Origin: Limnobacter sp. 130
GTDB lineage: Bacteria; Pseudomonadota; Gammaproteobacteria; Burkholderiales; Burkholderiaceae_B
Direction: 5' to 3'
NCBI RefSeq assembly: GCF_902506325.1
Contig: NZ_LR732328.1
Location: 124,001 to 188,000 of the forward strand
Length of the DNA: 64,000 nucleotides
The position numbers were made by a program, and so were the translations under genes. Position 1 is the first letter of the stretch; each line of letters opens with the position of its first letter. The notes beneath the pieces are model-generated. The model was not told the origin of the DNA. It made no database searches and worked only from the letters and a program-made list of their open reading frames with translations. This document shows positions 20,299-36,437 of this stretch, in pieces.

Positions 20299-22212
20299 CT
20301 ATTTTTTGCGCAATCTAGGAATGGCCATGAACACTGCCACGCCTTGCCCCTGGCTGTTTCGCCCGGTGTAAAGTTCAATGCGAATGGCTTTGGCCCGAAT
20401 TTTCATGTGAGCAAGGCCGCGCCCACGGCCCAGCGTGTTGTGGGGCATGCCCACGCCATTGTCGCTAATGTTCAATAACACCTTGTCCTCGGTTTCAGCC
20501 CACCGAACACTTAATTCAATTTTGTTGGCTTTGGCGTGTTTCAGGCTGTTTGCGAAAACTTCCTGCACTATTCGCAGCAAATCGAACAGGTCGCGAGAAC
20601 TGTAACCTTCCAGTTTTGGAATGTCCGCGACACTCCACAGCAAGTTCACGCCGCTGGCTTTCAGGCGGCGCTCGTAGCGCCACCGGAAGTTGCCCAGCAG
20701 GGCAAGCAAATCATCGCTTTGGGGATCAAGCGAATCAATCGCCATACGCAAATCGTCCAGGCATTCCTGCAGCACATCGCGCATTTCATCCTGACCCAAT
20801 GGCTTGGTCTCACTCAGGTTCAGGGCTGACACCAAACTGGAACCCACGCCGTCGTGAATGTCTTGCATGATTCGTCGGCGTTCGTCGTCTTGTGCGCGTT
20901 GCTGCTCAATTTTTCGCAGTAAATTGAATTGGCGAAATAGCTGCTGTTCGCGAATGGCCAACTCGGAATTCAGCGAGTCGTTGGAGGTTTTCAGTTCTTG
21001 CAACAAAGCGCGATAGCGCCTGAAAATAATCCAGCAGGCTGATACAAAGAGCAAAATGCCGGTGTACTGCGACAACAGGATTGACTCAATCGGCAGCAAG
21101 TTCAGCATGGTGGCCAAATCACGAATGCTGAGCAGTACAAACAACAGGGAGCTGCAACCCAGAATGGCCCCTTCAAAATTGCGTGTACGCCAGGAATGGC
21201 TCAACAACAGCACATTCAATATAAACACCACAGGAATGACCGGCAGCAACAGCCAAAAGGTGAAGTTCAGGATTTGATCGCTACCCGCAGCAAAGGTAAT
21301 CAGCGACACCGCCACTGCGTAAGCCAGCAGACCCTTGGGAATCCAGATCCAGCCCAGGTGCATGTAGCGAATCAGGAATAGCCCGTACAAACAGGCAAAC
21401 CAGGCATGCAGGCTGTGCACCAACTGGCCCCACTGTGCATGGGGTAGGGGAATCCAGTCCATGAAATAGCCCGTGTTGCGAACGGCAAATACAATCACGG
21501 CAAGACTCAAGAACAAGAAACCTTCCTGTTCCCGAAAAATTCTCGCGAACACCAGCAGCAACAGACCACTGGCAAAAGCCACAAGGGTGGCCAGCATGGA
21601 TCCAGTGACCTGCCACCGGTATGACGATTCATACATGGGTTCGAGCAATTGCCGAGGCCCCATCCAAACCCGGCCCAAACCACTGCGGTAGTTCTTGTAG
21701 CCCGCTACCTGAATCAACAGGGTGTTGTTGCCGGGGGTGAGCAGGTCGGGTGAAAACTGAAACAGATAAGGGTAATTCCAGTGCCGGGTAATCTCACCTT
21801 CCAGGGTGCCCAGTCCGCCGATCCAGTGGCCATTCAGGTAGGCGTGGGCATTCATGATGGCCTTGGGCATGAATACAGAATCGGGGGCTGGTTTATCCGG
21901 ATCAAGCTGAAAATCAATTTGATACCAGCCTTGCCCTTCAAACCCGGGTTGGGTGACATCCCAAGAGTCGGGTAGCACCACGGTTTTTTTCGTATTCAGC
22001 GACATGACGTCTGCAGCGCTAAGCGTGGCGTCGCTTGAGAACAGCACTTTGGCCTGTTCAAACAAATGGGCTTGTTGTTCGGTGTTGGCGTTGCCCAAGG
22101 CGGGTAACGGGGCTTTGAATGTTCCCCACAAGGCCACTGCCAGGGTGAGCAGAAAAAGAAGGGAGAAACGCCAGGAAAACAGGCGATCAGTGATTTCCGG
22201 ATTCGGACTCAA
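20299..22212 (-). CDS. NarL-type sensor histidine kinase with jelly-roll sensor and seven-helix membrane domain (pair 1)
   Basis: A 637-residue membrane kinase. Order of parts: an N-terminal helix (about 13-35), a periplasmic beta-sandwich (about 65-200) with an AHAYLNGHWIGGLG and LLTPGNNTLLIQV pattern like galactose-binding/7TMR-DISMED2 domains, about seven membrane helices (205-400), a coiled coil, an HisKA_3 dimerisation region with ERRRIMQDIHDGVGSSL (phosphoacceptor His453), and an HATPase with VFANSLKHAKAN, ISDNGVGM and GRGRGLAHMKIRA. The start is TTG 22212, overlapping the regulator stop (TTGA); there is no nearby ATG. It presumably phosphorylates the regulator encoded just upstream. 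It is the last gene of the 15-gene gsp run. Confidence 0.87.
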   Translation of the reverse strand: MSPNPEITDRLFSWRFSLLFLLTLAVALWGTFKAPLPALGNANTEQQAHLFEQAKVLFSSDATLSAADVMSLNTKKTVVLPDSWDVTQPGFEGQGWYQIDFQLDPDKPAPDSVFMPKAIMNAHAYLNGHWIGGLGTLEGEITRHWNYPYLFQFSPDLLTPGNNTLLIQVAGYKNYRSGLGRVWMGPRQLLEPMYESSYRWQVTGSMLATLVAFASGLLLLVFARIFREQEGFLFLSLAVIVFAVRNTGYFMDWIPLPHAQWGQLVHSLHAWFACLYGLFLIRYMHLGWIWIPKGLLAYAVAVSLITFAAGSDQILNFTFWLLLPVIPVVFILNVLLLSHSWRTRNFEGAILGCSSLLFVLLSIRDLATMLNLLPIESILLSQYTGILLFVSACWIIFRRYRALLQELKTSNDSLNSELAIREQQLFRQFNLLRKIEQQRAQDDERRRIMQDIHDGVGSSLVSALNLSETKPLGQDEMRDVLQECLDDLRMAIDSLDPQSDDLLALLGNFRWRYERRLKASGVNLLWSVADIPKLEGYSSRDLFDLLRIVQEVFANSLKHAKANKIELSVRWAETEDKVLLNISDNGVGMPHNTLGRGRGLAHMKIRAKAIRIELYTGRNSQGQGVAVFMAIPRLRKK

Positions 22213-22922
22213 AGGTCAAGAAGCCCCAACAGGGTGGCTTCATACACCGCCTCAGACCGGCTGTGCACGTGCAGCTTCTTGTAGATACGCTTCACGTGGG
22301 TGGCCACTGTGTGGGTAGAAATTCCCATTTGCGCTGCAATTTCCTGCGCAGTGAAACCGCGGGCTACTTGTTGAATTACTTTCAATTCCCGGTCTGTAAT
22401 ACTGCAGGCTTTTTGTGATTCATCCTGCCCGGTTTTTGCTTGTGCAAAGTTGTTTTCTGCAGGCCGTGCCGTTTGCATTTTTGACAGCAACTGCCGAGCA
22501 ATCAAGGGGCTGATGGGCGAGCCACCGTTGGCCACTTCAAGAATGTGCTCAATCAACTCGTCGTTTGAATAATCTTTCAGCAGGTAGCCGCTTGCACCCG
22601 CCTCAAGACTTCTCACCACATGGTCTTCATCACCAAAAGCGGTAATCACCAGGCATTCTGTTTCGGGTTTGTGTTTGCTTAGCCATTCAATGACTTCAAT
22701 GCCCGATGAGTCCGGTAAGCCCAGGTCAATCAGGGCTACCTTTGGGTTGGTCATGAACAACAGGGAGTACGCGTCCTGAACTGAGCTGGCCACACCCAGC
22801 AATTTCATTTGTGGCGAGGAGTCGATCACACGGACCAAGTGGTCTTGCGTGGCCGGTTCGTCCTCGACCAAGATCACGCCGATTGGCTTGGCTTCAAAGT
22901 GATCAAGGTCTCGCGCGTTCAT
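22209..22922 (-). CDS. NarL/LuxR-family response regulator (pair 1)
   Basis: A 237-residue two-domain regulator. The receiver domain (about 15-135) has the acidic pair in VEDEP and the phospho-acceptor Asp66 in ALIDLGLPDSSG, with Lys in LLKDY. A linker of about 35 residues leads to a LuxR-type helix-turn-helix (about 170-232), with ITDRELKVIQQVARGFTAQEIAAQMGISTHTVATHVKRIYKKLHVHSR. It probably binds DNA as a dimer when phosphorylated by the kinase whose gene overlaps its 3-prime end. It is paralogous to the regulator at 24837-25550. Targets are unknown; the gsp operon itself is a candidate because of co-location. Confidence 0.9.
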   Translation of the reverse strand: MNARDLDHFEAKPIGVILVEDEPATQDHLVRVIDSSPQMKLLGVASSVQDAYSLLFMTNPKVALIDLGLPDSSGIEVIEWLSKHKPETECLVITAFGDEDHVVRSLEAGASGYLLKDYSNDELIEHILEVANGGSPISPLIARQLLSKMQTARPAENNFAQAKTGQDESQKACSITDRELKVIQQVARGFTAQEIAAQMGISTHTVATHVKRIYKKLHVHSRSEAVYEATLLGLLDL

Positions 22923-22933
22923 GATTTGCCGGT

Positions 22934-24832
22934 TTAAGTGTCCAAAGGTAATCTGAGCAGAAAGCGGGTACCTTGCCCAGCTTCGGTGGTCATTTCGATA
23001 CTGCCACCCAAAGCAGCCGCACGTTGTTTCAGGTTTTTAAGGCCCCTGCCATGCTGGCTTCTTTCCAGCACAAATCCTACGCCGTTGTCTTGAATCTGAA
23101 CACCCACATATTTTGGTCCCCTGGAAACATGCAGGCTGACTTCGCTGGCATTGGCATGCTTCAAAATATTGGTAAAAATCTCTTGAACAATGCGTAAAAC
23201 ATGCAGGCAGTTGCGGGCATCCAGGTAAGGAATGGGCGGTATGTCTTCATCAATCACCCAATGCAGCCGTATGCCTGCACTGCGCATATTGTCGGCGATC
23301 CGGTAGCGAAAAGCGCCCAGCAGGGTGGTGAGGTCCTGTTCAATCGGTTCCAGCGAGTCGATTGTTAGCTGCAAATCCCGCAATCCGGATTCAAGCAGGT
23401 TCAAGGTGTTTTTCCGATTGAAGTTGGAGGACTGCAAATGGTGAATTGCAGCCACCAGGTGGGCCCCCAGGCCATCGTGCATGTCGGCCATCAAGCGTTG
23501 GCGCTCGGCCATTTTTACTTTCTCTTCATCAATTTTCTGCATGCGTAGGTACTGCGTTGCCAATTCGACTTCGCGTTCCATTAGCCTGTTTTGCAGCGTT
23601 TCATTGAAGCTGTCGGATTCAGCCAGTAAACCGCTGTAGCGATCAATCAAGAAGTAGCTCATGGCCAAAAACATGGCAATGCCCATGTATTGGTTCAGAA
23701 AATAACCGTCGAATGGAAGAATTCCCGCGAGAAACAGGAGGTCAGAGGTGCTCAGGGCCATGTAGCAGAGCAAACCGAATCCGAAAGCGTGCGGCGCCAG
23801 GGATTGTTTGCTGTTTCCGTACCGCACCAGCAGTATCACGTTCCAGCTGTACATGCACAAACCGAGAATGCCGTAGTAACCCACCAGGCGCAGCGCCCAG
23901 TTTTCATTGATGATGAGCAACACCGGAAAACTCAGGGAGTAAGCCCACCATATTTTCCATTCCAGCCTTTGTTTGGGCACCCGGCAGTAAAGCAGTATCA
24001 GCAATACAATTGTGCTGGCAAATACCAACAATCCGCCTTGGGTAATCTGGATCCACAAACCGTGTTCAAATGGCGGCACGGTGGTCAGAAATGCAAGGTT
24101 CCGAATGCCCCACAGAAAACAGGTGGCGGCAAGCAGCATGAGCAGTCCGCTGCGGGTTTTGCCCATACCGATCAGTATGGTCAGCACAATGCCGGCACCC
24201 AACACAAAGGCGGTGCTCAGGTAGACCGAAGTCACCTGCACCTCGTAACGCGAACGGTAGGCTTCGCGAAGGTTTTCATCGGAGCCGAGCCAAATGGTGG
24301 ACAAGCCAGCCAGGTAGTCGGGAAAGGCGCGCACTTGAATGGCCAGGGTGTTTTGCCCCAGCTTTAGTACATTGGCCCCAAGGTTCACTATTTGCGGGCG
24401 ATTCCAGTTTCGCTCGGCAAACTCACCGGTCATCGGGCCGTAAAACCCAATGCGCTCACCATTCAGGTACACCTCGGCATTCATGGCAAAGCGCGGCATG
24501 TACAGCGCCTCAATACGACTCTCGGGTAACACATCGAAATCCAGCTCATACCAGTAAAATCCGCCAGGGCCCCGCAGCATGTTGTCAATTCTGTGGGGCA
24601 GCTGTACCACGGGTGCGGTGGCCAAGTGCGCAGGTGGCGCGGTTTGGTAGTCGGTGTGTGCGGCGAAGCGTGCCATGGTTAATTCAATGGCACTGGGATC
24701 GGTTGGCGTGGCTTTGGCGATTTGGTAATACAGCACGGCCGCGCCACACAGTGCAATCAGCATGGCCAATGCATAAAACAAAGCAAGTCGTTTTGCCCAG
24801 TTGTATGTGGGCGTCAGTGGTGCGCTCGCCAT
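22934..24832 (-). CDS. NarL-type sensor histidine kinase with jelly-roll sensor and seven-helix membrane domain (pair 2)
   Basis: A 632-residue paralogue of the kinase at 20299. It has an N-terminal helix, a periplasmic sandwich (about 75-205, with NAEVYLNGERIGFYG and VLKLGQNTLAIQVRAFPDYLAG), about seven membrane helices (about 205-400), a coiled coil, an HisKA_3 box with AERQRLMADMHDGLGAHLV (phosphoacceptor His452), and an HATPase with IFTNILKHANAS, IQDNGVGF and GRGLKNLKQRAAALGGSIE. The C-terminal G2 box is intact. It lies 4 bp downstream of its putative partner regulator and 11 bp upstream of pair 1. The sensor domains of the two kinases differ in sequence, suggesting different ligands. Confidence 0.87.
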   Translation of the reverse strand: MASAPLTPTYNWAKRLALFYALAMLIALCGAAVLYYQIAKATPTDPSAIELTMARFAAHTDYQTAPPAHLATAPVVQLPHRIDNMLRGPGGFYWYELDFDVLPESRIEALYMPRFAMNAEVYLNGERIGFYGPMTGEFAERNWNRPQIVNLGANVLKLGQNTLAIQVRAFPDYLAGLSTIWLGSDENLREAYRSRYEVQVTSVYLSTAFVLGAGIVLTILIGMGKTRSGLLMLLAATCFLWGIRNLAFLTTVPPFEHGLWIQITQGGLLVFASTIVLLILLYCRVPKQRLEWKIWWAYSLSFPVLLIINENWALRLVGYYGILGLCMYSWNVILLVRYGNSKQSLAPHAFGFGLLCYMALSTSDLLFLAGILPFDGYFLNQYMGIAMFLAMSYFLIDRYSGLLAESDSFNETLQNRLMEREVELATQYLRMQKIDEEKVKMAERQRLMADMHDGLGAHLVAAIHHLQSSNFNRKNTLNLLESGLRDLQLTIDSLEPIEQDLTTLLGAFRYRIADNMRSAGIRLHWVIDEDIPPIPYLDARNCLHVLRIVQEIFTNILKHANASEVSLHVSRGPKYVGVQIQDNGVGFVLERSQHGRGLKNLKQRAAALGGSIEMTTEAGQGTRFLLRLPLDT

Positions 24833-24836
24833 TGTT

Positions 24837-25550
24837 TCAGCAGTCTTTCAGATTGATCAAACCCAAAGCGTTGGCGCGATGAACCGCACTAGTGCGGGAA
24901 TTCACTGCCAGCTTTTTGTAAATACGTTTGACGTAGGTGCTGATGGTGTTGATGGATACGCCCAGAAGGTCGGCGATTTCCGCTTGCATGAAACCCTTGG
25001 CCACCATTTCCAGCACTTGCTGTTCCCGCTCTGACAAGGGTGTGAATGCGTGATTCACCGTGGCTTTGCTGGTAGGCAGTTGGTCTGGGGTGGACACGCC
25101 GCGAAAACGGTTCAGCAGTCGCCGTGCAATCACCGGGCTAATCGGTGATCCACCCGCGCGCAGTTGTTTCAATCGATCAAGAATGTCGGCAGTGCGTGTG
25201 TCTTTGGTCAGGTAACCTGTGGCCCCGGCTTCGATACTGGAAATAACATGTGATTCATCACCAAACACGGTCAGCACCATGCTTTCGCAGCCGGGCATGT
25301 GTTGGTGAATGTGGGCAATCAATTCCAGGCCACTGCCATCGGGCAAGCCCAGGTCAACCAGCACCACCTCGGGTTGCAATTCGTTGACCACGGCCATGGC
25401 TTCCCTTAGCGTATAGGCCTGACCGACCAGGTGCAACTCAGGGTGGGTTTCAATGGCCAGTCGCAGTGCTTGCTGAATTCGGTCATCGTCGTCGACCAGC
25501 ATGACGCGAATGATCTCTTGTCCAATCTCTGTTCGGCTTTGTATGTTCAT
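24837..25550 (-). CDS. NarL/LuxR-family response regulator (pair 2)
   Basis: A 237-residue regulator, the same length as its paralogue at 22209. The receiver domain has VDDDD near residue 20 and phospho-acceptor Asp66 in VVLVDLGLPDGSG, plus a conserved Lys in YLTKD. The C-terminal LuxR helix-turn-helix reads LSEREQQVLEMVAKGFMQAEIADLLGVSINTISTYVKRIYKKLAVNSR. Its ATG overlaps the gspF stop codon (ATGA), so translation is coupled to the secretion genes, an unusual placement. The overlap makes gsp-dependent expression of the regulator very likely. Confidence 0.9.
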   Translation of the reverse strand: MNIQSRTEIGQEIIRVMLVDDDDRIQQALRLAIETHPELHLVGQAYTLREAMAVVNELQPEVVLVDLGLPDGSGLELIAHIHQHMPGCESMVLTVFGDESHVISSIEAGATGYLTKDTRTADILDRLKQLRAGGSPISPVIARRLLNRFRGVSTPDQLPTSKATVNHAFTPLSEREQQVLEMVAKGFMQAEIADLLGVSINTISTYVKRIYKKLAVNSRTSAVHRANALGLINLKDC

Positions 25551-26761
25551 TGGATCAGTTGGTTGACTTCAATAATCGGCATCATCACCGCCAGCACAAT
25601 CAATAACACAATCAGGCCCATCACCAAAATAAGTATGGGCTCCATCAGGCTGGTCAGCCACATGGCCTTGCGTTCTACCTCGGTGCGCTGGCTTTCCGAG
25701 GCACGTTCCAGCATGGCAGCCAGTTGCCCGGTGGCCTCGCCGCTGGCGACCAGATGGGTCAGCACGGGCGGAAACAAACCGCTTTTGCCCATGGCTTTGC
25801 TCAGGCCGCTGCCTTCTTTCACGCGCTCTTGTACATCGACCATGGCCAGTTGCAAGGCGCTGTTACCCAATGTGCGGTTGGCGGCAGCCAGTGCCTTCAA
25901 AATGGGAACGCCGCTGCCCACCAAAATGGACAGGGTTGAGGCCAGGCGCGCTGTATTCACTGCACGAATAAAGGGCCCCACCACAGGAATAGTCAGCACC
26001 GTTTCATCAAATCTTAGTTTGAAGGCTTTGTTTTTCAGTGCGTTGCGAAACAGGTAAACAGCGATCGCAATGATCAAAGCCATCAACCAGCCCCAATCGC
26101 GCAGCAGATCCGACAGCGCAATCATCACCACGGTGATTGTCGGCAATTCCTGATTGCTGTTTTCAAACACCGACACCACTTGCGGCACCACATAGGTCAG
26201 CAGGCCGATCACCACCATCAAGGCGACCAAGGTAACAATTGCCGGGTAAATAAATGCAGCGCTTACTTTTTGCTGCAAAGCCTGGCGAGCCTCCAGTGCG
26301 TCGGCCAGTTTGGACAGTACGCCGCCCAGGTCGCCGGTATTTTCGCCAGCGGCCACAGTGGCCACGTACATTTCGGGAAAGGCTTTCGGGTACTGCGCCA
26401 AGGCTTGGCTTAGTGGTGTGCCGGAAACAACCTCGGAACGAATGCTGTTAATGCGTTCACGAATCAGGGGTTTTTCAGCCTGCTCCACCAGTGCGGCCAA
26501 GGCTTGCGCCAGCGCCAGGCGGGCTTGCAACAGGCTGGCCAGTTGGCGGGTCATCAGCACCACTTCACGGTTGCTCAATTCCCGATCAAAGCGGCCCGCT
26601 TTTTTGCCGGTCATTTTGGCGCTGCCCACCTCAACGACTTCAATGGGTGTCATGCCTTGCATGCGCATTTGGTTGCGCGCAGCCCGAGGGGAATCGGCTT
26701 CCATCGAGCCTTTGACTGTTTTACCTTGGGCGTTTAACGCCTCGTATCGAAAAACTGCCAT
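25547..26761 (-). CDS. gspF: Type II secretion inner-membrane platform protein GspF
   Basis: A polytopic inner-membrane protein that couples the ATPase to pseudopilus assembly. At 404 residues it is of normal length. It contains two T2SSF domains, each with an LARRLASLL-like or FAR/TAR...LVGSGVPILKAL helical repeat (about 70-195 and 270-395), and three membrane helices near residues 170, 220 and 375-400. It starts MAVFRYEALNAQGKTVKGSMEADS, the classic GspF N-terminus. It is separated from gspE by 6 bp and overlaps the pair 2 regulator by 4 bp. Confidence 0.95.
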   Translation of the reverse strand: MAVFRYEALNAQGKTVKGSMEADSPRAARNQMRMQGMTPIEVVEVGSAKMTGKKAGRFDRELSNREVVLMTRQLASLLQARLALAQALAALVEQAEKPLIRERINSIRSEVVSGTPLSQALAQYPKAFPEMYVATVAAGENTGDLGGVLSKLADALEARQALQQKVSAAFIYPAIVTLVALMVVIGLLTYVVPQVVSVFENSNQELPTITVVMIALSDLLRDWGWLMALIIAIAVYLFRNALKNKAFKLRFDETVLTIPVVGPFIRAVNTARLASTLSILVGSGVPILKALAAANRTLGNSALQLAMVDVQERVKEGSGLSKAMGKSGLFPPVLTHLVASGEATGQLAAMLERASESQRTEVERKAMWLTSLMEPILILVMGLIVLLIVLAVMMPIIEVNQLIQ

Positions 26762-26767
26762 GGGTTT

Positions 26768-28231
26768 TTAGTCTCGCGTCACTCGAAGCAATTCTTCAAG
26801 CGTGGTGGTGCCGCCTTCAACCCAGCGTTGGCCGTCTTCACGCATGTTCTTCATGCCTTTGGCCTGCGCACGCTGGCGCATTTCTGCTTCTGAAATTTCA
26901 TTGTGCACCATGGTGCGCAATTCATCGTCGATGGTGAAGAGTTCGTAAACGCCGGTGCGGCCAATGTAACCGGTGTGCCCGCATTGGTCGCAACCGTTGG
27001 CATGCCAGTGGGTGTGGCCCTGTTCATCTACCGTGCTTGTTTTGCAATTCGGGCAAAGCCTGCGCACCAGGCGCTGGGCCAACACGCCCAACAGGCTTGA
27101 AGACAGCAAGAAGGGTTCTACACCCATGTCGACCAGGCGGGTTACCGCACTGACCGAATCGTTGGTGTGCAAGGTGGCCAAAACCAAGTGGCCGGTCAGC
27201 GAGGCTTGTACCGCAATTTGTGCGGTCTCCAGGTCGCGGATTTCACCAATCATGATCACATCCGGGTCTTGGCGCAAAATCGCGCGTAAGGCCTTGGCAA
27301 AGGTCATGTCGATTTTGGCATTCACCGGGGTTTGGCTAATGCCGGGCAAATCGTATTCCACCGGGTCTTCTACGGTCATCACATTGGTGGTGGAAGAATC
27401 GATCCGCGACAGTGCCGCATACAGTGTGGTGGTTTTACCGGAACCCGTTGGGCCAGTTACCAAAATGATGCCGTGCGGCATATTGCACAGGCGGTCCATT
27501 TCTTTCAAGGTGTGCTCGGGCATGCCAAGGCGGCTCAGTTCAAGCCGACCCGCTTCTTTGTCAAGCAAGCGCAGCACTGCGCGTTCGCCATGGCCTGTGG
27601 GCAGCGTAGAAACCCGCACGTCCATGGGTTTGCCGCCAATGCGCAGGGTGATGCGGCCGTCTTGGGGCAGGCGTTTTTCGGCGATATCCAGGCTGGCCAT
27701 AATCTTGATGCGGGAAATCAGCGCCGAGTGCAATTCACGGCGAGGTTGCAGCACATCGCGCAACGTACCATCCACGCGGAATCGCACAGCCGAATGCGTC
27801 TCAAACGCTTCAATGTGAATGTCGGATGCGCCATCCCGGCTGGCTTGTGTCAGCAGCGCATTGATCATCCGGATAATCGGTGCGTCGTCCTCGGTTTCCA
27901 GCAGGTCTTCAACCGCGGGAATGTCTTGCATCAACTGGTCAAGGTCCAGGTCGCCAGCCACTTCATCGGCCACGGCTGCCGCACTTGTTTCCTGGCTGGA
28001 ATAGGCCTGATTGATTGTTTTTTCCAGCACCACTGCGTCTTCGCAAAACACCCAGTCAATAGGGCAGGGCGCCACGCGTTGCGCTTCAATCAGTGCATGG
28101 CTGGGCGTGCGCGGGCTAAACGCCAGGCGCCATTGCTCGGCATGTGCATCAAGGCACAACACCTGGTTTTGACGCGCAAAACCATAGTGCAGGCGGCCAA
28201 CAGTTTGTGGGTTGAAGCGCAACTCACTCAA
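26768..28231 (-). CDS. gspE: Type II secretion ATPase GspE
   Basis: A cytoplasmic hexameric ATPase driving pseudopilus growth. It has 487 residues, with an N-terminal domain (1-100), then the catalytic core with GASDIHIE, the Walker A GPTGSGKTTTLYAAL (Lys about 266), Asp box MTVEDPVEYDL, Walker B VIMIGEIRDLETAQ and His box GHLVLATLHTND. The tetracysteine zinc insertion is present (CPNC ... CDQC). The start codon is TTG 28231, sharing TTGA with the gspD stop; no ATG lies within the first 100 codons. Confidence 0.95.
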   Translation of the reverse strand: MSELRFNPQTVGRLHYGFARQNQVLCLDAHAEQWRLAFSPRTPSHALIEAQRVAPCPIDWVFCEDAVVLEKTINQAYSSQETSAAAVADEVAGDLDLDQLMQDIPAVEDLLETEDDAPIIRMINALLTQASRDGASDIHIEAFETHSAVRFRVDGTLRDVLQPRRELHSALISRIKIMASLDIAEKRLPQDGRITLRIGGKPMDVRVSTLPTGHGERAVLRLLDKEAGRLELSRLGMPEHTLKEMDRLCNMPHGIILVTGPTGSGKTTTLYAALSRIDSSTTNVMTVEDPVEYDLPGISQTPVNAKIDMTFAKALRAILRQDPDVIMIGEIRDLETAQIAVQASLTGHLVLATLHTNDSVSAVTRLVDMGVEPFLLSSSLLGVLAQRLVRRLCPNCKTSTVDEQGHTHWHANGCDQCGHTGYIGRTGVYELFTIDDELRTMVHNEISEAEMRQRAQAKGMKNMREDGQRWVEGGTTTLEELLRVTRD

Positions 28232-30651
28232 GGCTTGTTACCCCCGCTGGGCGCGGTGCCCGGGCTAGAGCCCGTGTTGTTGCCATTGGTGCCACCACGA
28301 ACGATTCGCCCACCATTTGAACCCACATCGGGGTTGCTGCTGCTTTCAGCCGCGCGCGGAATCACCAGAATCCGGTTGCTGGGCGTCAGGTTGATGGAAT
28401 CACCATTGTTCTGCGCCGGGGCCACTGAGTTGGGGCGTGCCACATCGGCCGGGCGGCGGCTTGGCAACACAGGCGCTTCCATATTCGGTAAGCCAAACCG
28501 GCGCTCGGGCTGGTTCTCTTGTTGCAACTGGCGCATGTAATCGTATCGGTTGGTCACAATGCTTTGGGCCTGGTCTTCATTGCGAACCACCACGGGGCGC
28601 AAAAATACCATCAGGTTGGTTTTCTGGCGGCGCCGGTTGTCGTAGCGGAAAAACTGCCCCAGTACAGGCACATCGCCCAGGCCTGGCACTTTTTCCTCGT
28701 TGCCGGTTACCCGGTCTTCAACCAGGCCACCCAGCACAATGATGTTGCCGCTCTCAACCAGCACATTGCTTTCAATGGACCGTTTGTTGGTGATAATGCC
28801 CGACACATTGGTGCTGTCTACCACCGAACTGACTTCCTGAAAAATACCCAGCTTCACGATACCGCCTTCCGACACCTGCGGTTTTACACGCAAGGTCAGG
28901 CCCACGTCTTGTCGCTCAATGGTCTGGAACGGGTTGACCGTGGCGCCGTTGCCACCGCTGTTGGTGAATTGCCCGGTAATGAAAGGCACGTTTTGGCCGA
29001 TCACGATTTTGGCTTCTTCGTTGTCCAGCGTCAGGATATTTGGCGTTGAAAGAATGTTGGCGTTGGCTTTGCTTTCCAGTGCGCGGGCCAAAAAGCCCAA
29101 ATTGGAAATGGTGCCAATGCCGGGAATATTCACTTGCCCATCAATAACCCCGATGTTCAAGCCTCGGCCCACTGATCCCAAATTGGCAGCTGCACCCAAG
29201 ATATTGCTGCCCGAGCCGGGTGCGTTAAAGTTGGTTCCACCAATTACACTGACTCCGTCACTTCCAACACCCGACAGGCCTTGAAACTGAATGCCGAACT
29301 CGGCTGCTTTGTCGGTGGACACTTCAACAATCAGTGACTCCACAAACACCTGCGCGCGGCGAACATCCAGTTTCTCAATAATCGAACGCAGGTTGCGATA
29401 AATCGGTTCAGGCGCGGTAATGATCAGCGAGTTGGTCGACGGATCTGCCTGCACAATGCCACCGTTGTTCAAGTCCACATTGCCTGAAGCCGCGCTAAGT
29501 TGTCCGCTGGACGTGCCGCCACCCAGTGAGGAACCCAAACTGCTTCCGCCCCCCAGGCCTGGGCTGCCGTTGGTGATGTTGCGGGTGCTGTTGTTTGATG
29601 AGTCGCCCAGCCCACCGGCCAGGCCGCCACTGGACTGCGAACTCAGGCCAGACGAGCTGTTGTCGGAAATCGGGCTGCTGCTTAGTACCGCCTGCAATGT
29701 TTTGGCCAACTTGGCGGCTTCCGCGTTTTTCAGGTAAACCACCCACACATTGCCGGGCTGCTTCGTGGGTTGATCCAGTTTGGCAATCAGGGCTTTGGCC
29801 AAATTCAAGCGTGCCTTACTGGGTGTGCGCAACAGCAGTGAATTGGTGCGTGGGTCTGCCATCACTGACAAACGTTGGCCAGCATCCACTGCCGCACCGG
29901 TTCCCCGGTTTCCTTCGTCCAGCATGCGGGCCAGGATCGCTGCCAGGTCCACAGCCAGCGCGTGTTCAAGGGGCACCACCTCCAGGTCGCCAGAATAGGG
30001 GCCATCGATACTGGCAATAATGCGGGCGATTCGCTGCAGGTTGTCTGCGTAATCGGTGATCACCAGGGTGTTGTTATTGGGGTAGGCCGCAATGGTGTTG
30101 TTCGGTGCAATCAGCGGGCGCAGCACGGGTACCAGTGCCGTGGCCGATTCATAGTTCAACTGAAAAACCTGGGTCACAATGGCATTGCCGCTTTGGTTCA
30201 TGGCCTTGCGTGGGTCCACGCTTTCAGCCTGTACTTTTGCATCGTTCTCGGGCAATACGCGTGCCACACCGCCGCTTTCTACAATTGTAAAACCTTGCAG
30301 GCGAAGCGCTGCCAACAGGGCATTTTTCGCATCTGCGGCACTCAAGGGTTCAGGTGAAACCAGGGAAATGGTGCCACGTACACGCGGGTCCACCACAAAG
30401 GTTTGATTGGTAAACGAGCCGATTGCACGCACCACGGCGTCAATGTCGGCGTTCACAAAGTTCAATGCAAATTTGTCTTCCTGGCTGTTTTGCACCCGTG
30501 CCGTGCTTTGCAGGCTCAGGTTTTGTGCATGGCCTGCAACACCCAACCCAAGGCCCATAGAAGCCAGCGCAATACTCAAAAGCGAGCGTTTCATTTGTCC
30601 CATGCGTGCAGTGTTCAAGCTCACTGTTCCTTTTATTTTTGCTTCTTTCAT
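28228..30651 (-). CDS. gspD: Type II secretion outer-membrane secretin GspD
   Basis: Forms the outer-membrane channel. It has about 807 residues. A signal peptide begins near MKRSLLSIALASMGLGLGVA and ends at GHA-Q, preceded by about 17 extra residues if the ATG at 30651 (overlapping the gspN stop as TGATG) is the start. N0-N3 domains follow (about 60-480), with a long Ser/Gly-rich insert (about 330-400) inside N3. The secretin core (about 500-715) has the VPGLGDVPVLGQFF signature. The C-terminal 90 residues are Pro/Asn/Gly-rich. No pilotin gene (gspS) is seen. Internal ATGs nearer the signal peptide are alternative starts. Confidence 0.95.
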   Translation of the reverse strand: MKEAKIKGTVSLNTARMGQMKRSLLSIALASMGLGLGVAGHAQNLSLQSTARVQNSQEDKFALNFVNADIDAVVRAIGSFTNQTFVVDPRVRGTISLVSPEPLSAADAKNALLAALRLQGFTIVESGGVARVLPENDAKVQAESVDPRKAMNQSGNAIVTQVFQLNYESATALVPVLRPLIAPNNTIAAYPNNNTLVITDYADNLQRIARIIASIDGPYSGDLEVVPLEHALAVDLAAILARMLDEGNRGTGAAVDAGQRLSVMADPRTNSLLLRTPSKARLNLAKALIAKLDQPTKQPGNVWVVYLKNAEAAKLAKTLQAVLSSSPISDNSSSGLSSQSSGGLAGGLGDSSNNSTRNITNGSPGLGGGSSLGSSLGGGTSSGQLSAASGNVDLNNGGIVQADPSTNSLIITAPEPIYRNLRSIIEKLDVRRAQVFVESLIVEVSTDKAAEFGIQFQGLSGVGSDGVSVIGGTNFNAPGSGSNILGAAANLGSVGRGLNIGVIDGQVNIPGIGTISNLGFLARALESKANANILSTPNILTLDNEEAKIVIGQNVPFITGQFTNSGGNGATVNPFQTIERQDVGLTLRVKPQVSEGGIVKLGIFQEVSSVVDSTNVSGIITNKRSIESNVLVESGNIIVLGGLVEDRVTGNEEKVPGLGDVPVLGQFFRYDNRRRQKTNLMVFLRPVVVRNEDQAQSIVTNRYDYMRQLQQENQPERRFGLPNMEAPVLPSRRPADVARPNSVAPAQNNGDSINLTPSNRILVIPRAAESSSNPDVGSNGGRIVRGGTNGNNTGSSPGTAPSGGNKP

Positions 30652-31382
30652 CAAAATACACCCAAGCGATAGCGATCGCCTTCAAGTCTTCCCATCTGGC
30701 TGAGCAATCCAGTCAACGCGTCTTTGCTGCGTTCTTGTGCACTGGCATACCCATTGAATACAAATCGTTGTCCGTTTGTCCACTGGCCAGTTCCCTCCAA
30801 CATCAAGGGGCCTTTGGCGGTCGCCAGTGTCATGTCTATTCTTGTATCAGGGTTTCCTGTCACGGTGATGACATATTCACCCAAGGGCCTGATGCTGGCT
30901 AGCGCGGATTGTGCGTCCAGCCATTTCAAGGTGGCATTTACTGCCTTGCCACTTTCCCAGTCAAGCCAGCTTAACTGCAACAGGCCCTCGGGTCGAATGG
31001 TATTGAATGGCGCCCCGGTTGCGCCCAGCCAGGCTGCGGGCAAGCGAAGTTCGCCACCTTTCACAGTAATACCTGCGCCATTGAATCCCAGATGCAAAGG
31101 TTGCACGAATTTTGGATGCTCGATGGCGATTGCAAGCCAGTTTCCGTCAAGCCCAATCTTGAGTTGCCACTGCACAGGCTCGGGTATCGAGTACAAGCGG
31201 GAACCATCAGAAAGACCCAATTGCATTTTCCCGGCCCACACGGAGCCACTGCTACTCAACACACGCACCTTGCCGCCACTGGCCGACTCAATGTTGTCGG
31301 ATATCGCATACACCGGGTAATTCCAAACCAGCACCACCAGGGCAAGCAATACAAATGGCCACCCGCTACGCCAAAGCTTCAT
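30651..31382 (-). CDS. gspN: Type II secretion protein GspN
   Basis: An accessory inner-membrane or periplasmic secretion component of about 243 residues, with one N-terminal membrane anchor (about residues 6-26) and a periplasmic beta-rich region. The SGSVWAGKMQLGL and GGELRLPAAWLGATGAPFNTIRPEGLLQLSW segments are characteristic of GspN. It is not essential in all systems. Overlaps of 4 bp with gspM and an ATG/stop overlap with gspD place it firmly in the operon. Confidence 0.88.
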   Translation of the reverse strand: MKLWRSGWPFVLLALVVLVWNYPVYAISDNIESASGGKVRVLSSSGSVWAGKMQLGLSDGSRLYSIPEPVQWQLKIGLDGNWLAIAIEHPKFVQPLHLGFNGAGITVKGGELRLPAAWLGATGAPFNTIRPEGLLQLSWLDWESGKAVNATLKWLDAQSALASIRPLGEYVITVTGNPDTRIDMTLATAKGPLMLEGTGQWTNGQRFVFNGYASAQERSKDALTGLLSQMGRLEGDRYRLGVF

Positions 31383-31906
31383 CGCGGCGTGCCCGTATTT
31401 CCCTGCGCGGCTGGCAGAAAGGTGACATAACCTTTCAGTACACCTGCTTCCGGCTTTTCCACTTCAGCCACGTTCATGTTGATGCTTGAAATAGATTCTG
31501 CCCGCGACAGCCAGGCCAGAAAACCGCTGGCCGACACATTGTTGAACTCCACACGAATGTCACCTTCTTCGGTGCGAACAAGTGTGGTTTGCTCAGCAAT
31601 TCCTTGTTCCTCCAGCAGTTGCTGCAGGCGGGCTTGCAAATCGCTTTCTGGCACCACCACGCGCGATCTTGCACCGCGTAGCGCATCCAGGTCTTGGGCG
31701 GCACGCATTACCTGGCCGGCTTTGTCCACCAGTGCTGCTTGATTGGCGGGCCCTTGTTGCACCGTCAGCAAGGCGGGTTCAATCAAAACAAACCAGGCAA
31801 TCAACACGGCAGCAAGTGCACCGCCGTAAGTCACCAGTTTTCGTTCGCGGCCATTGAGCTGGTCGAGTTGGGCCTGTGCCTTGTTCAGCAAATCATTTGG
31901 TTTCAT
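31379..31906 (-). CDS. gspM: Type II secretion protein GspM
   Basis: A bitopic inner-membrane protein that stabilises GspL. ATG 31906 gives 175 residues and an ATGA overlap with gspL; the longer open frame to 31966 lies in gspL. A cytoplasmic stub of about 26 residues is followed by one membrane helix (LVTYGGALAAVLIAWFVLIEP), a periplasmic coiled coil and a ferredoxin-like domain (about 90-170). The sequence is poorly conserved, so the assignment leans on position and topology. Confidence 0.88.
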   Translation of the reverse strand: MKPNDLLNKAQAQLDQLNGRERKLVTYGGALAAVLIAWFVLIEPALLTVQQGPANQAALVDKAGQVMRAAQDLDALRGARSRVVVPESDLQARLQQLLEEQGIAEQTTLVRTEEGDIRVEFNNVSASGFLAWLSRAESISSINMNVAEVEKPEAGVLKGYVTFLPAAQGNTGTPR

Positions 31907-33156
31907 CGCGCAACCCCCTTCTTCACCTGCAACACAGGCAAATTGGATTGAGCACCGATCAACCACTTTGCGTCCAGTCTTCGCGCTTTCAGTTTTTGCA
32001 GGGCCGCGCCTTGCTGGTCCTCGGAAATATTGGCATTGAACCGAACATTCAGTGTGTTCTCAGCCCAGGCAAAATCGACCATGCTGTTAAACGGCGCCTG
32101 CTCCATGGCCAAGCCCACCTCGTGTAGCAGGGCGCTTGCACCTTGGGCGTTACTGGTGTCGAGCCCGGCGTTCAGGTTGCGTTTCTCACGTTCAATCAAC
32201 AACAAGGGGTCAGCCACCATGGGTGTGTTGGGCAGTGCTTGCGCATAGCTTTCGGCAATTTGGGCTTCAATTGCGGCATTGGCACTTTCAACCTTGAAGG
32301 CCAGTGCATTCAAGCCCAGCACTGCCACAAGCAATAGCACCAAGGCTGGTGCAAGCAGTTTACGAAGACCCGCCTGGTTCGCCATGGGGCGCATGCCCAT
32401 TTTGCGAAGTTCATCTGCATTCAGCAAACTTTTGTTCAGCAAACGGGGCAATGGTTCTGTGGGCGCGCGTTCCGCAGCCCGAATTTTATTTTCGCCCAAG
32501 GCGCCGTCGACCTGCGTGCCAAGCCAGGCATAGTCGGTGTTGTTCAACTCAATCACTGGGGAACCCAGCAGTTGCAGGCGGCGTTGCAGCATTACCTTCA
32601 ATACCGCCGGTTGGGCAGCGGGAGTCAACAGTGGCGTGTCGATGCCGTCGAGCAAAATGAAATCCTGCCCACTCAACCAGGCGGCCCCCTCGCTGCCGGT
32701 GCGTTCCCGCAAAGTCTCACAACTCAGCCCGGCCAACTTCAACTTTTGTTGTGCGCAGGCACTCACAATGCTGCGTGCCCGGATTTTTCCCAACACGGCA
32801 GCCAACTTCGCACCGCCAGTGTGGTTGGGCAGGTTCGCCCAAAGGCTTACATGGTTTTCCTCTGGCTCGTTCAACAGGTAGGGCTCGACCAGAAAAGGCA
32901 ATGCCTCTTTCAGCTTGTTGCCGCTCAATTTTGGGGGTACCACGGCAAACAGGCCCACTTCTGTGGGGTTGACCAGCACCAGGCAGGGCAGGTCTTTCGG
33001 CAGTTTGTTCAGCGCTTCTTCGCCACCGTGCAGTTTGTCGCCATTTCTGGCCAGTACTTCATAGCGCAGCCGAATCATGCGGCCTTCTTCTTCCGCGCGG
33101 GTTTGGTCCAGGGCTTTGGGCCACCAAATCACCAACAAGGGTTGGTTGTTATTCAA
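31903..33156 (-). CDS. gspL: Type II secretion protein GspL
   Basis: GspL recruits the GspE ATPase to the membrane. The 417-residue protein has an actin-like cytoplasmic domain (about 1-240), with the typical VVPPKLSGNKLKEALPFLVEPYLL segment, a membrane helix (about 268-290, LAPALVLLLVAVLGLNALAF) and a periplasmic ferredoxin-like domain. The start appears to be TTG 33156 immediately after the gspK stop, supported by GGAG eight bases upstream; the next Met is residue 27. The C-terminus overlaps gspM. Confidence 0.9.
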   Translation of the reverse strand: MNNNQPLLVIWWPKALDQTRAEEEGRMIRLRYEVLARNGDKLHGGEEALNKLPKDLPCLVLVNPTEVGLFAVVPPKLSGNKLKEALPFLVEPYLLNEPEENHVSLWANLPNHTGGAKLAAVLGKIRARSIVSACAQQKLKLAGLSCETLRERTGSEGAAWLSGQDFILLDGIDTPLLTPAAQPAVLKVMLQRRLQLLGSPVIELNNTDYAWLGTQVDGALGENKIRAAERAPTEPLPRLLNKSLLNADELRKMGMRPMANQAGLRKLLAPALVLLLVAVLGLNALAFKVESANAAIEAQIAESYAQALPNTPMVADPLLLIEREKRNLNAGLDTSNAQGASALLHEVGLAMEQAPFNSMVDFAWAENTLNVRFNANISEDQQGAALQKLKARRLDAKWLIGAQSNLPVLQVKKGVAR

Positions 33157-34107
33157 TTATTGTCTCCACATCACATACACGCGCTGGTCTCGTCGCTCGA
33201 GCAGGGCCCGGGTTCGAATCAACGCCTCCTCCACCTGTGCAGTACCTTCCACCAGGAAGAAATTGCTGCTCACGGTTATTAAATCATTGTTTATGGTCAC
33301 ATTCGCATTCAAGGCAGCCCGAATATCCGCCACATTGCGGAAAGTGACCCTTTCACGTTGAGCCAGCAACCGTTGTGCATCGCTAAAACTCATCTCTTCT
33401 ACTACCGCGTAAAGCACCTCGGCAGATGCAGTATTGGCATTCACCTGGCTTGCCTGGGGCAAAATCACCACATAGGGGCGAAGCTGATTCCATGTGTCTT
33501 CTGAAATGCCGTACTTGCCCCGAAACTCCTCCCACCGCAAAGCAGGTTCAATGGGCAGCGCGTTTGGATCAATGCCCTGTTCTTCAGGATTGGCCAGCTT
33601 GGGCATGAACATGGTGCTTAAGGTTTGTACCAACAAATTGCGCTGGTCTGCGGGCACACTGAGCAGGTCGCTTAGCTTGGTAAAGCCCGCCAGCCAGGTC
33701 TTTTGGCGGGAATTGTCAGCGCCCAGATTGCGCAGGTTGAATCGGCCCTGCGCGTCTTCAATTCGGCCTGTCAACACCACCTCGCGGTCATCCACGTCAG
33801 TCGCATTTTCTTCTTTGCGCATCAAGCCTTCATTGATGCGGCTCTCAGCCAGTGGAACTGCCCAAGGTTCGGTCAGCGTGTCCGTGGTCGACACCCTGCC
33901 ATCTTCACGCAAAATAACTCGGGCCCAGTCCACGCCACTGCGGCTCACAGCATCCGCCTGGTCTCGGGCGGCAGCCACTGAAATGGTTTTGGCGGTTGCA
34001 AACAGATTCCAGATCAACGGGCTCACTGCCAGGGTGCACAGCACCACAATGAACAGTGCCATGACCACTGCGGCGCCCTGTTGCCTGGTTTGTAGCGCGT
34101 GTTGCAT
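33157..34107 (-). CDS. gspK: Type II secretion minor pseudopilin GspK
   Basis: The largest minor pseudopilin, which caps the pseudopilus tip together with GspI and GspJ. It has about 316 residues. A short basic leader (QTRQQGA-AVVMALFIVVL) precedes the hydrophobic helix for prepilin peptidase cleavage. As usual for GspK, there is no Glu at position 5 of the mature helix. A large alpha-domain insertion with SAM-like VNANTASAEVLYAVV and FRNVADIRAAL follows. ATG 34107 overlaps the gspJ stop (TGATG); TTG 34110 is an alternative. Confidence 0.92.
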   Translation of the reverse strand: MQHALQTRQQGAAVVMALFIVVLCTLAVSPLIWNLFATAKTISVAAARDQADAVSRSGVDWARVILREDGRVSTTDTLTEPWAVPLAESRINEGLMRKEENATDVDDREVVLTGRIEDAQGRFNLRNLGADNSRQKTWLAGFTKLSDLLSVPADQRNLLVQTLSTMFMPKLANPEEQGIDPNALPIEPALRWEEFRGKYGISEDTWNQLRPYVVILPQASQVNANTASAEVLYAVVEEMSFSDAQRLLAQRERVTFRNVADIRAALNANVTINNDLITVSSNFFLVEGTAQVEEALIRTRALLERRDQRVYVMWRQ

Positions 34108-34808
34108 CAATACACCCCACCTGTCAGAAATACCCGCGTAACCACCTGGTTGTTGGGCTGTGTCAAACTGATTTCAACGGCCCGTACCAAGCTTTGTAAA
34201 GCCTGTCCTGTCGTCGTGCCAGGCGTTCCGGGGTTCTCACCATCATCCCCTGCAGGGGGTTGGGCTGTTGGCGTGCCGGTGTTCAACTGCAATGCAGGGC
34301 CCTGCAATTCAAGGTCGGTGCGTTCCTGCACCACATGGTTGCCAAACACCACTGGGCTGCTCCAGCCACCCGGTTCCCGTAACAAGCGCACTTGCATGCC
34401 CCGGGTGGCAATGGGTTCGCTAACTGATGCTTGGTCTGGGTTGGACGGGCGGCGGGCAATTCTCAACAGCGTGGCGCCGTCGAGTACCCATTCCACACGT
34501 TCACGATAGGCAGGTTCGCTGGTGTTGCGTTGGGTAAACTGAATGAGCAAGCCGTTGCCTGTCACCTCAATCAAATCGCCCTCGGGCGTGGGGCCCTCCA
34601 GTGTCAATTCAAGGGCAGCAAGGTCTTTTTCCAATTGGGAAAACACGGCTGTCACGGTTTGCACCTGTTCATCCACAGCAGTCACCCGGCCGGCCGAGCG
34701 GAGTACTTCCTGCAAACCCTGCCAGGACAAAATCGAAATCACCGACACGATTCCCAATGCAATCAGTACCTCGAGTAGCGTAAAGCCTTGGGCTTTTTGC
34801 TTGCTCAT
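34107..34808 (-). CDS. gspJ: Type II secretion minor pseudopilin GspJ
   Basis: A 233-residue minor pseudopilin with a class III prepilin leader: MSKQKAQG followed by FTLLEVLIALGIVSVISILSW, cleaved by a prepilin peptidase not encoded here. The helix is followed by VLRSAGRVTAVDEQVQTV and a beta-rich head, with RVEWVLDGATLLRIARRP typical of GspJ. An unusually Pro/Gly/Asp-rich loop (about 175-205) lies near the C-terminus. It overlaps gspI by 4 bp (ATGA). Confidence 0.92.
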   Translation of the reverse strand: MSKQKAQGFTLLEVLIALGIVSVISILSWQGLQEVLRSAGRVTAVDEQVQTVTAVFSQLEKDLAALELTLEGPTPEGDLIEVTGNGLLIQFTQRNTSEPAYRERVEWVLDGATLLRIARRPSNPDQASVSEPIATRGMQVRLLREPGGWSSPVVFGNHVVQERTDLELQGPALQLNTGTPTAQPPAGDDGENPGTPGTTTGQALQSLVRAVEISLTQPNNQVVTRVFLTGGVY

Positions 34809-35179
34809 GGCGCACTGCTCAAGAAAATCACCAAACGAGCCAACTGGTTGCCCTTGTCGCCTTCAAATGCGTCTAGAACCTGAATTTCGACCCGACGAAA
34901 ATTTGGATTGGGCGTATTGGAAATGTCGACCCGACACACAAAACGGAAATTGCCCTGCGGGCAGGTGTGCTGTGCGGTTTGGGCGCTGGGAAAAACGCCT
35001 GACACGCGAATGAAGTTGGCCGCATTTTTCGCGCTCCATTGCGCATACTGCCGCTTGATCATTTCATCTTGCTGAATGTTCAAGTTGCCAGCGGCTTTCA
35101 GGCATGCGATCAAGGCGACGGCAATAATGGTCATGGCCACCAGTGCTTCGATCAAGGTAAAGCCGCGTTGCTGCTTCAT
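34805..35179 (-). CDS. gspI: Type II secretion minor pseudopilin GspI
   Basis: A 124-residue minor pseudopilin starting MKQQRGFTLIEALVAMTIIAVAL, with the prepilin peptidase site after Gly and Glu at mature position 5. The C-terminal head has VCRVDISNTPNPNFRRVEIQVLD. Its length and position (after gspH, before gspJ) fit GspI, which nucleates the pseudopilus tip with J and K. It overlaps both neighbours by 4 bp. Confidence 0.92.
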   Translation of the reverse strand: MKQQRGFTLIEALVAMTIIAVALIACLKAAGNLNIQQDEMIKRQYAQWSAKNAANFIRVSGVFPSAQTAQHTCPQGNFRFVCRVDISNTPNPNFRRVEIQVLDAFEGDKGNQLARLVIFLSSAP

Positions 35180-35685
35180 GGGTTCTGGTTGTTCCGGTTC
35201 AACACCCTGATGGGTTTGCCCACCTTGAACACGCCACTGGCCTGGCTTTCTAGCACCACCTGTACCTCGTTTCGTTGAAGAACAATGGCCTGGCGTTTTA
35301 GGCCTGTCTGGCTTTCCAGGGTCAGAAAGCGGTTTTCAAGTCCCTCGTTGATCAAGGTTGCTTTAAAAGGGCCGTTGTCCCACTGGCGCGGCCGCAACAG
35401 GGGTTCGGTCGTCACAGGCACCCAGCGGCTGCCCGTGAATTCCTCGAAGGCATAGCCCTCATCGCCCGCAACAAAACGGATGTCTTTGGATTTCAGAAGA
35501 GATTCTTGCTGCGCAATCCGAAGAAGCTGTGCCAGTTTCTTGGCGTCTGACTCCAGGTAATTGGAGTCGCCAGGGGTACCGCGCACTACAATAAGCCCAG
35601 CGGCGATCGACAAAACGACGATCACCACCAGCAGTTCAAGCAGGGTAAAACCCTGCTTAGAGGCTCCAGGAACCAATGTCGGCAT
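35176..35685 (-). CDS. gspH: Type II secretion minor pseudopilin GspH
   Basis: A 169-residue minor pseudopilin with the leader and helix MPTLVPGASKQGFTLLELLVVIVVLSIAAG. The GDEGYAFEEFTGSRWVPVTTEPLLRPRQW region corresponds to the GspH head domain. The start lies inside gspG, giving a 29-bp overlap; no closer start is available because the prepilin cleavage motif must be kept. A 4-bp overlap with gspI follows. Confidence 0.92.
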   Translation of the reverse strand: MPTLVPGASKQGFTLLELLVVIVVLSIAAGLIVVRGTPGDSNYLESDAKKLAQLLRIAQQESLLKSKDIRFVAGDEGYAFEEFTGSRWVPVTTEPLLRPRQWDNGPFKATLINEGLENRFLTLESQTGLKRQAIVLQRNEVQVVLESQASGVFKVGKPIRVLNRNNQNP

Positions 35686-36106
35686 TCACGCCCTCGCCAC
35701 CGGCCTTGCCATCTGCGCCAAAGCTCATTACATCCACTTCACCGTTAATGCCCGGGCTCAAAAACTGGTAGCTGCTGCCCCATGGGTCAACCGGCAAACG
35801 AGACAAATAGCCGCCCTGTTTGTAGTTGCGTGGCACTGGTTCTGTGGTGGGGGCGGTAACCAAAGCTTGCAGGCCTTGTTCCGTGGTGGGGTATCGGCTG
35901 TTATCCAGGCGGTACAGGTTGAGCGCCTGCATAACGGACGCAATGTCTTGCTTGGCCGCAACAGCGCGGGCCTCGTCAGGGCGTCCCATGATCTTCGGAA
36001 CCACCAGCGTTGCCAGAATTCCCAGAATAACGACCACAACCATGATTTCAATCAGGGTAAAACCCTTGTTTGATTTTTTGCCTTGAAGCGAATTTAGTTT
36101 TTTCAT
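35657..36106 (-). CDS. gspG: Type II secretion major pseudopilin GspG
   Basis: The main pseudopilus subunit, 149 residues from ATG 36106; the open frame running to 36208 lacks the right N-terminus. The leader MKKLNSLQGKKSNKG precedes FTLIEIMVVVVILGILATLVVPKIMGR. The head has the conserved YRLDNSRYPTTEQGLQALV and DPWGSSYQF motifs plus the calcium-loop region near the C-terminus (FGADGKAGGEGVNADI). It is the first gene of the minus-strand operon. I see no strong ribosome-binding site. The region upstream to 36437 is shared with divergent gspC. Confidence 0.95.
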   Translation of the reverse strand: MKKLNSLQGKKSNKGFTLIEIMVVVVILGILATLVVPKIMGRPDEARAVAAKQDIASVMQALNLYRLDNSRYPTTEQGLQALVTAPTTEPVPRNYKQGGYLSRLPVDPWGSSYQFLSPGINGEVDVMSFGADGKAGGEGVNADIGSWSL

Positions 36107-36282
36107 ATACAACCGTAGAGAAGATCCAGAATTATCCTTGTCGAAGGTTACACCTATTTTATGAATATTTGACAGCAGCCCGCCCCACCCTTGCCACCAG
36201 CACAACAACCCCCTTGCTTTCGGGTAACCAGTAAAACCATTATCTTTGTCACGTAAATAGGGTCTTTCGTAGGTGTTCTTGC

Positions 36283-36330
36283 ATGAGCATACTGCTGGTG
36301 TGGGTGATTCATATCACCGACAACCCTTGA
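36283..36330 (+). CDS. Possible 15-codon leader peptide upstream of a terminator and gspC
   Basis: ATG 36283 opens a 15-codon frame reading MSILLVWVIHITDNP and ending at TGA 36328-36330. Seven of residues 3-11 are Ile, Leu or Val. AGGTG lies eight bases upstream of the ATG. A hairpin GGTGAT/ATCACC (36303-36318) lies inside the frame, and a terminator begins 11 bases after the stop. This is the general layout of an attenuator leader, but such a short frame can arise by chance and no homology was tested. A weak promoter candidate is TTGCTT (36214-36219), 18 bp, CATTAT (36238-36243). The 331-bp gspG-gspC gap holds nothing else I can name. Confidence 0.25.
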   Translation: MSILLVWVIHITDNP

Positions 36331-36340
36331 AGCATGGCTT

Positions 36341-36407: not shown

Positions 36408-36437
36408 ACTTTTCAGCATGTCACTTCACTTTGCCCC

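Follow-up and report, generated by a model that had tools for sequence, protein, structure and literature searches.

To our knowledge, little is understood of what switches type II secretion on, except in a few pathogens. The original paper on the Txc type II system with its TtsS/TtsR pair is said to be Cadoret 2014. According to the accessible text of two papers (PMC12051241, PMC8623646), the NarL-family pair TtsS/TtsR of Pseudomonas aeruginosa PA7 regulates the linked Txc system, and by analogy linked NarL-type control of type II secretion has a precedent in TtsSR/Txc. Here we describe a string of 15 genes in the water bacterium Limnobacter sp. 130 in which a type II secretion (gsp) operon runs on into two pairs of a response regulator (RR) and a histidine kinase (HK). 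The string lies in a window of 64,000 nucleotides (NZ_LR732328.1, 124,001-188,000) of a 3.28 Mb genome in six contigs, and all positions refer to this window unless a locus is named. Handles beginning with G denote genomes and those beginning with L denote loci.

Compared by description, the locus resembles TtsSR/Txc in that a NarL-type pair stands beside type II secretion genes. It differs in that the Txc island, in the part of the literature accessible, lies just downstream of its regulator gene, whereas the Limnobacter pairs end the operon and number two. Moreover, control of Txc has been reported, whereas control of gsp by the Limnobacter sensors is inferred. The pairs are like the NarX/NarL and DesK/DesR systems in their DesK/VraS-like kinase core and in regulators built of a receiver and a LuxR-type helix-turn-helix (HTH), but HK1 and HK2 have a different sensor part. 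In architecture the kinases resemble the 7TMR-DISM receptors, which, as far as the accessible text on NicD describes them (PMC8544897), share an outer jelly roll, membrane helices and an intracellular signalling part; the outer domain of NicD is linked there to carbohydrate binding. However, the output of HK1 and HK2 is a histidine kinase, and neither has a Pfam 7TM match. Our literature search turned up no case of a type II operon that closes with two such pairs; most subscription papers were beyond its reach, so we do not claim absence from print.

The 15 genes occupy positions 20299 to 36106 of the minus strand, in the order gspG-H-I-J-K-L-M-N-D-E-F and then RR2-HK2-RR1-HK1. Open reading frames and Pfam profiles confirmed this order, which an initial annotation had read from the sequence. 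The eleven gsp genes that it listed (gspG to gspN, gspD, gspE and gspF) were all recovered; gspC, which it omitted, is present but divergent. T2SSG, T2SSI, T2SSK, T2SSM, T2SSN, Secretin, T2SSE and T2SSF all matched above cut-off. The core genes gspD, gspE, gspF and gspG pass their Pfam cut-offs, as do gspC, gspI, gspK, gspM and gspN among the assembly and minor pseudopilin genes, while gspL falls just below and gspH and gspJ are assigned by an N-methyl motif and position. From gspG to HK1, the junctions on the longest frames are -29, -4, -4, -4, 0, -64, -4, -4, -4, +6, -4, +4, +11 and -4 bp, where the 64 bp overlap of gspL and gspM becomes 4 bp if gspM starts at ATG 31906. The gspF stop and the RR2 start share a common ATGA, the overlap that had been noted at the outset, and profiles and junctions alike bear out two NarL-type pairs in one compact gene string. 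The further statement that most junctions overlap by 1-29 bp and the largest gap is 11 bp holds on the longest frames with the gspM ATG, but the gap would be about 32 bp if gspD starts at TTG 30618. This TTG is probably the true start, because comparison of relatives shows the upstream part of the frame interrupted in G014. The widest gap is therefore more probably the 32 bp before gspD than 11 bp.

HK2 and gspF were placed in 60 genomes (our own and 59 relatives), and 40 stretches were mapped with the window genes. Sixteen of the genomes, our own included, are Limnobacter. Both pairs follow gspF in 11 of these 16 (our own, G001, G003, G005, G006, G007, G008, G012, G013, G014 and G015), and HK1 was found in 13 when all 16 were searched. 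Because 10 further Limnobacter genomes repeat this arrangement, the gene order is, on this comparison, shared beyond chance; conservation of the order, which the initial annotation had proposed to check by genome comparison, thus extends to most of the genus. In 10 of 12 aligned genomes gspF and RR2 are joined by ATGA (the exceptions are G014 and G015), and G015 retains the order despite divergence down to 41-58% identity. G009 and G010 have gspF-RR2-RR1-HK1, with only HK2 missing. About 100 bases separate RR2 and RR1 in these two loci (L082 and L083, 4545-8018), and the further HK2-query matches among those listed for both genomes cover the kinase core only. As both are nested inside an 11-genome clade (bootstrap 100), the tree identifies the absence of HK2 as a loss. 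In G027, from the sister genus, a single RR-HK pair comes after gspF, with the same neighbours on either side. No match was found in a second genome of that genus (66% complete), and G011 (65% complete) has no close gspF (best 29%) and no such kinases.

The initial annotation had called the layout non-standard, and other gsp clusters agree with it. We read 21 further gspF loci (44-52% identity, 20 Burkholderiales genomes) from about 11 kb upstream to about 8 kb downstream of gspF, with L099 and L113 ending at contig ends, and none had an RR or HK match at E 1e-4. Several of these 21 ordinary clusters likewise have gspG to gspN, gspD, gspE and gspF on one strand with a divergent gspC, and they differ in having no regulator or kinase match.

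The kinases have an H-box and an ATPase domain, and the regulators a receiver motif and a LuxR-type HTH, which places them in the NarL/FixJ type, although HisKA_3 is below its own cut-off in both HK1 and HK2. HK1 and HK2 are 31% identical. The H-box is kept in 24 of 24 Limnobacter kinases and the DLGL motif of the receiver aspartate in 26 of 26 regulators (RR2 of G015 by alignment only); the strict N-box or G-box pattern was missed in some divergent kinases. The ratio of non-synonymous to synonymous change (dN/dS) for RR2, HK2, RR1 and HK1 was 0.023-0.090 in three genome pairs, and that of the gsp genes measured was 0.014-0.163 (gspI excluded). By this ratio the regulators and kinases are under purifying selection. 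RR2 of G009 and G010 retains the DLGL motif and the HTH, on a longer branch. Its motifs being kept where HK2 is gone suggests that RR2 can take phosphate from HK1 (the nearest candidate) or from another kinase. Judged by eye, and as a hint only, receiver helix 1 of RR2 in these two genomes is shifted towards RR1.

AlphaFold2, given HK2 and 12 further sequence rows, returned one helix and a jelly roll (residues 49-183), after which about seven long helices lead to a kinase core. The mean predicted local distance difference test score (pLDDT) of this model was 64, with the membrane part mostly at 50-65. A Foldseek search with the kinase core returned DesK and VraS. Modelled alone, the outer domain reached a pLDDT of 87.8, and its fold resembled structures of beta-galactofuranosidase, beta-glucuronidase and beta-galactosidase (best E 1.8e-6, query template-modelling score, TMq, 0.67). 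By sequence profile it matched a sialic-acid esterase (E 4e-5) as well as proteins with the sugar-binding domain of glycoside hydrolase family 2 (GH2; best E 2.8e-5). Profile and fold, taken independently, both indicate a GH2-type outer domain. The Pfam model 7TMR-DISM_7TM matches 3 of 13 family members, and among the matches listed for the window proteins none reached an NCBIfam equivalog cut-off. The models and profiles support a kinase with a GH2-like outer jelly roll, a multi-helix membrane part and a DesK-type core, from which we infer, by reasoning from the outer domain, that HK1 and HK2 may sense sugars.

If the regulators act on gsp, a candidate site is at hand. The gspC-gspG intergenic region is 331 bp long and has two conserved parts by alignment. 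The one before gspG, a candidate promoter or operator, contains AAAATNGGTGTAACC, which is present in the window and in the loci of 10 relatives and in no other locus examined, bar a second copy of our own stretch. Leaving aside G015, which has an altered form, and excepting G027, the block occurs in 11 of the 11 genomes (our own included) that have at least one pair and whose stretch reaches it, and it is absent in G004, which has no pair. The full pattern is exact at only one place in our own genome.

The other conserved part, before gspC, resembles a small RNA or a leader. In 11 sequences, 10 of 23 named base pairs had changes on both sides. These two-sided changes filled 18 cells, compared with a mean of 5.7 in shuffles that do not preserve the relatedness of the sequences; 0 of 500 shuffles reached 18, and slid structures gave at most 5. 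Further pair types (17, compared with 16.9 in shuffles) count against covariation, and the RNAalifold covariation term was slightly unfavourable (+0.62). A model of the element matched 13 of the 60 genomes, namely the 11 used to build it, G013 as a new one, and G015, where the match (E 0.0099, on a contig other than that of its gsp) is probably due to chance. It scored E 1e-21 or better in 11 of the 16 Limnobacter genomes and was also found in G027, with no match in G001, G002, G004 or G011. Rfam gave nothing at gathering score across the whole window; two eukaryotic families at 36000-36600 (E 0.073 and 0.76) were taken as chance. We also rejected an attenuator reading: judged by eye, GACAACCC can pair with the terminator's 3' arm in G000, but this pairing is not kept in G009, G010 and G014.

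Simple scans of the operon gave no excess of promoter-like sites (7 observed, 8.4 expected, standard deviation 2.9) or of terminator-like sites (30 observed, 24.6 expected, standard deviation 5.1). An internal terminator and a promoter after gspF, which the initial annotation had said would speak against its feedback circuit, did not turn up, as these scans found neither kind of site near the gspF/RR2 join on the minus strand. A raw dip in synonymous change at the 3' end of gspF (0.40 and 0.33, compared with about 0.55) prompted the idea of a hidden promoter there. We rejected it, as the residue-corrected minimum is elsewhere in gspF and 175 of 200 shuffles were as low. The corrected test did flag HK2 codons ~570-594 (about 23050-23130, minus strand), where the change was -0.283 compared with a minimum of -0.247 in 200 shuffles (14 codons used). 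It also flagged gspH codons 2-26 and the gspD start, a region with the lowest synonymous window among the 13 genes tested. Between gspN and gspD (30594-30650, minus strand) we observed conserved bases in which the inverted arms CAGTG and CACTG flank the TTG at which gspD probably starts.

A profile of the sensor part, searched against 399 genomes of the order Burkholderiales, matched 45 with our own included (44 of the 398 others). We read 41 loci among the 54 listed matches outside our own genome, several of them shortened by contig ends, and 36 of the 41 had a regulator match in the stretch. L148 has a weak partial secretin match (26%, about 110 residues) more than 7 kb away. Outside Limnobacter and its sister genus the RR-HK cassette is thus generally free-standing, and it was joined to gsp near the base of these two genera, or on two occasions. 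In a kinase tree of 64 rows made by a quick method, HK1 (13 rows) and HK2 (11 rows) each formed one clade. Both fell in one clade with the kinase of G027 and a gsp-unlinked kinase of G072 (Shimodaira-Hasegawa-like approximate likelihood ratio test, SH-aLRT, 99), within which G027 grouped with HK2 (SH-aLRT 87) on a long branch; a regulator tree lacked the resolution to place G027 relative to RR1 and RR2. The kinase tree fits a duplication of HK1/HK2 at the gsp site, with long branches that leave origin and timing unsure. The neighbours of three free-standing cassettes (G072, G050 and G227) had no common theme. In G227 (L182, 6527-11184) the cassette adjoins a divergent gene for a ShlB-family two-partner-secretion transporter.

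Table 1. Genes and conserved elements of the gsp locus and its two regulator-kinase pairs (window positions).
Feature	Position	Strand	Basis
gspG, major pseudopilin	35657..36106	-	T2SSG E 2.7e-41; start ATG 36106
gspH, minor pseudopilin	35176..35685	-	N_methyl E 3.4e-7; name from motif and position only
gspI, minor pseudopilin	34805..35179	-	T2SSI E 1.1e-16
gspJ, minor pseudopilin	34107..34808	-	N_methyl E 6.7e-7; name from motif and position only
gspK	33157..34110	-	T2SSK E 2.4e-14
gspL	31903..33156	-	GspL_C E 2.3e-5, 24.7 against cut-off of 29.6 bits (just below); position
gspM	31379..31906	-	T2SSM E 5.8e-19; ATG 31906, longest frame from GTG 31966
gspN	30651..31382	-	T2SSN E 1.3e-20
gspD, secretin	28228..30618	-	Secretin E 1.3e-46; likely TTG 30618, longest frame from 30654
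gspE, ATPase	26768..28231	-	T2SSE E 3.1e-152
gspF, inner-membrane platform	25547..26761	-	T2SSF E 7.7e-61
RR2, NarL-type response regulator	24837..25550	-	Response_reg E 2.5e-21, GerE E 2e-18; DLGLPD motif
HK2, sensor kinase with predicted outer jelly roll and membrane helices	22934..24832	-	HATPase_c E 4.4e-13; H-box DMHDGLG; structure models
RR1, NarL-type response regulator	22209..22922	-	Response_reg E 1.9e-21, GerE E 4.2e-18
HK1, sensor kinase, HK2 paralogue	20299..22212	-	HATPase_c E 1.1e-8; HisKA_3 E 1.5e-4 (just below cut-off); H-box DIHDGVG
gspC, divergent from operon	36438..36923	+	T2SSC E 2.7e-9
Conserved block before gspG, candidate promoter/operator	36130..36173	-	Alignment; contains AAAATNGGTGTAACC
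Small-RNA-like or leader element before gspC	36240..36380	+	Hairpin, invariant TTGAAGCATGGCTT, intrinsic terminator; about 140 bases

Downstream, the operon meets the convergent gene hmgl, whose end is 19 bp from that of HK1. The type II layout is, by these sequence comparisons, real, kept in most of Limnobacter and unlike the other gsp loci read. As to its role, we lean slightly towards a sugar-sensing, two-channel system that is made with the secretion machine and controls gsp. A two-component cassette would have been added to the 3' end of a type II secretion operon, and most Limnobacter would retain it as two diverged copies. The periplasmic signal for HK1 and HK2 would be sugars, oligosaccharides or envelope glycans. 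The kinases would phosphorylate RR1 and RR2, and these regulators may act at the divergent gspC/gspG promoter (block 36130-36173) and perhaps also at the genes for secreted enzymes. Because transcription through gsp would raise the sensors too, a feedback loop would result. Several observations weigh against such a system. G004 (100% complete) has gsp, but its gspF abuts hmgl and it has no kinase of the HK1/HK2 family. G002 (85% complete) has gsp without the pairs, and a non-regulator frame (L089, 1-507), presumably the start of a Fic-type protein, fills the 500 bases from gspF to the contig end. G027, with its single pair, does not show the gspG block, and none of the 41 kinase-family loci outside Limnobacter and its sister genus has gspE, gspF or gspG. 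Neither HK1 nor HK2 in the window matches a Pfam 7TM sensor model, and a possible internal promoter for RR1-HK1 lies within HK2, at codons ~570-594, about 125 bases ahead of RR1.

Some of these observations would suit other roles. The pairs may be co-transcribed with gsp yet regulate other genes, such as those for secreted hydrolases or uptake, with no feedback on gsp. The free-standing cassettes of other Burkholderiales point to an older role other than gsp control, and in G004 and G002 gsp stands by itself, with neither pair; the gspG block, although a candidate regulator site only, argues the other way, being exact only there in our own genome, and we hold this role to be possible but improbable. 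The same two genomes, with the loss of HK2 in G009 and G010, make for a patchy presence that would suit a mere passenger between gspF and hmgl, under a promoter of its own and functionally unconnected with secretion, as would the putative element within HK2, close to its end. A passenger is nevertheless quite unlikely given the widely kept ATGA join, the order that G015 retains at its low identity, and the corrected synonymous change and promoter scan, which point to no promoter at the 3' end of gspF. The sensors might also report envelope or secretion stress (for example a stalled secretin or pseudopilus) and adjust the gsp dose. Not every jelly roll of this shape binds sugars, and HK2 resembles the model of LiaS, an envelope-stress kinase (E 7.3e-20, below the model cut-off). 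However, that match is confined to residues 430-630, the kinase core, while the outer domain matches sugar-binding domains by both profile and fold, and stress sensing appears unlikely. A search for GlyGly-CTERM proteins, which are possible substrates, gave no match and was uninformative, as control genomes likewise had none.

Going beyond control of gsp by two sugar sensors, the locus might form a self-contained module in which two sugar receptors of one family, produced from the secretion transcript, feed two regulators whose wiring partly overlaps. A small RNA from the gspC/gspG region would contribute another level of control, and the whole machine would be tuned to the glycans met, although we consider this doubtful. 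Of interest here are the two pairs whose sensors resemble sugar-binding domains, the variants that arose by natural loss, and the RNA element. HK1 and HK2 are candidate polysaccharide receptors, and the Limnobacter variants without one kinase (G009 and G010) or without all four genes (G004) offer a ready natural comparison.

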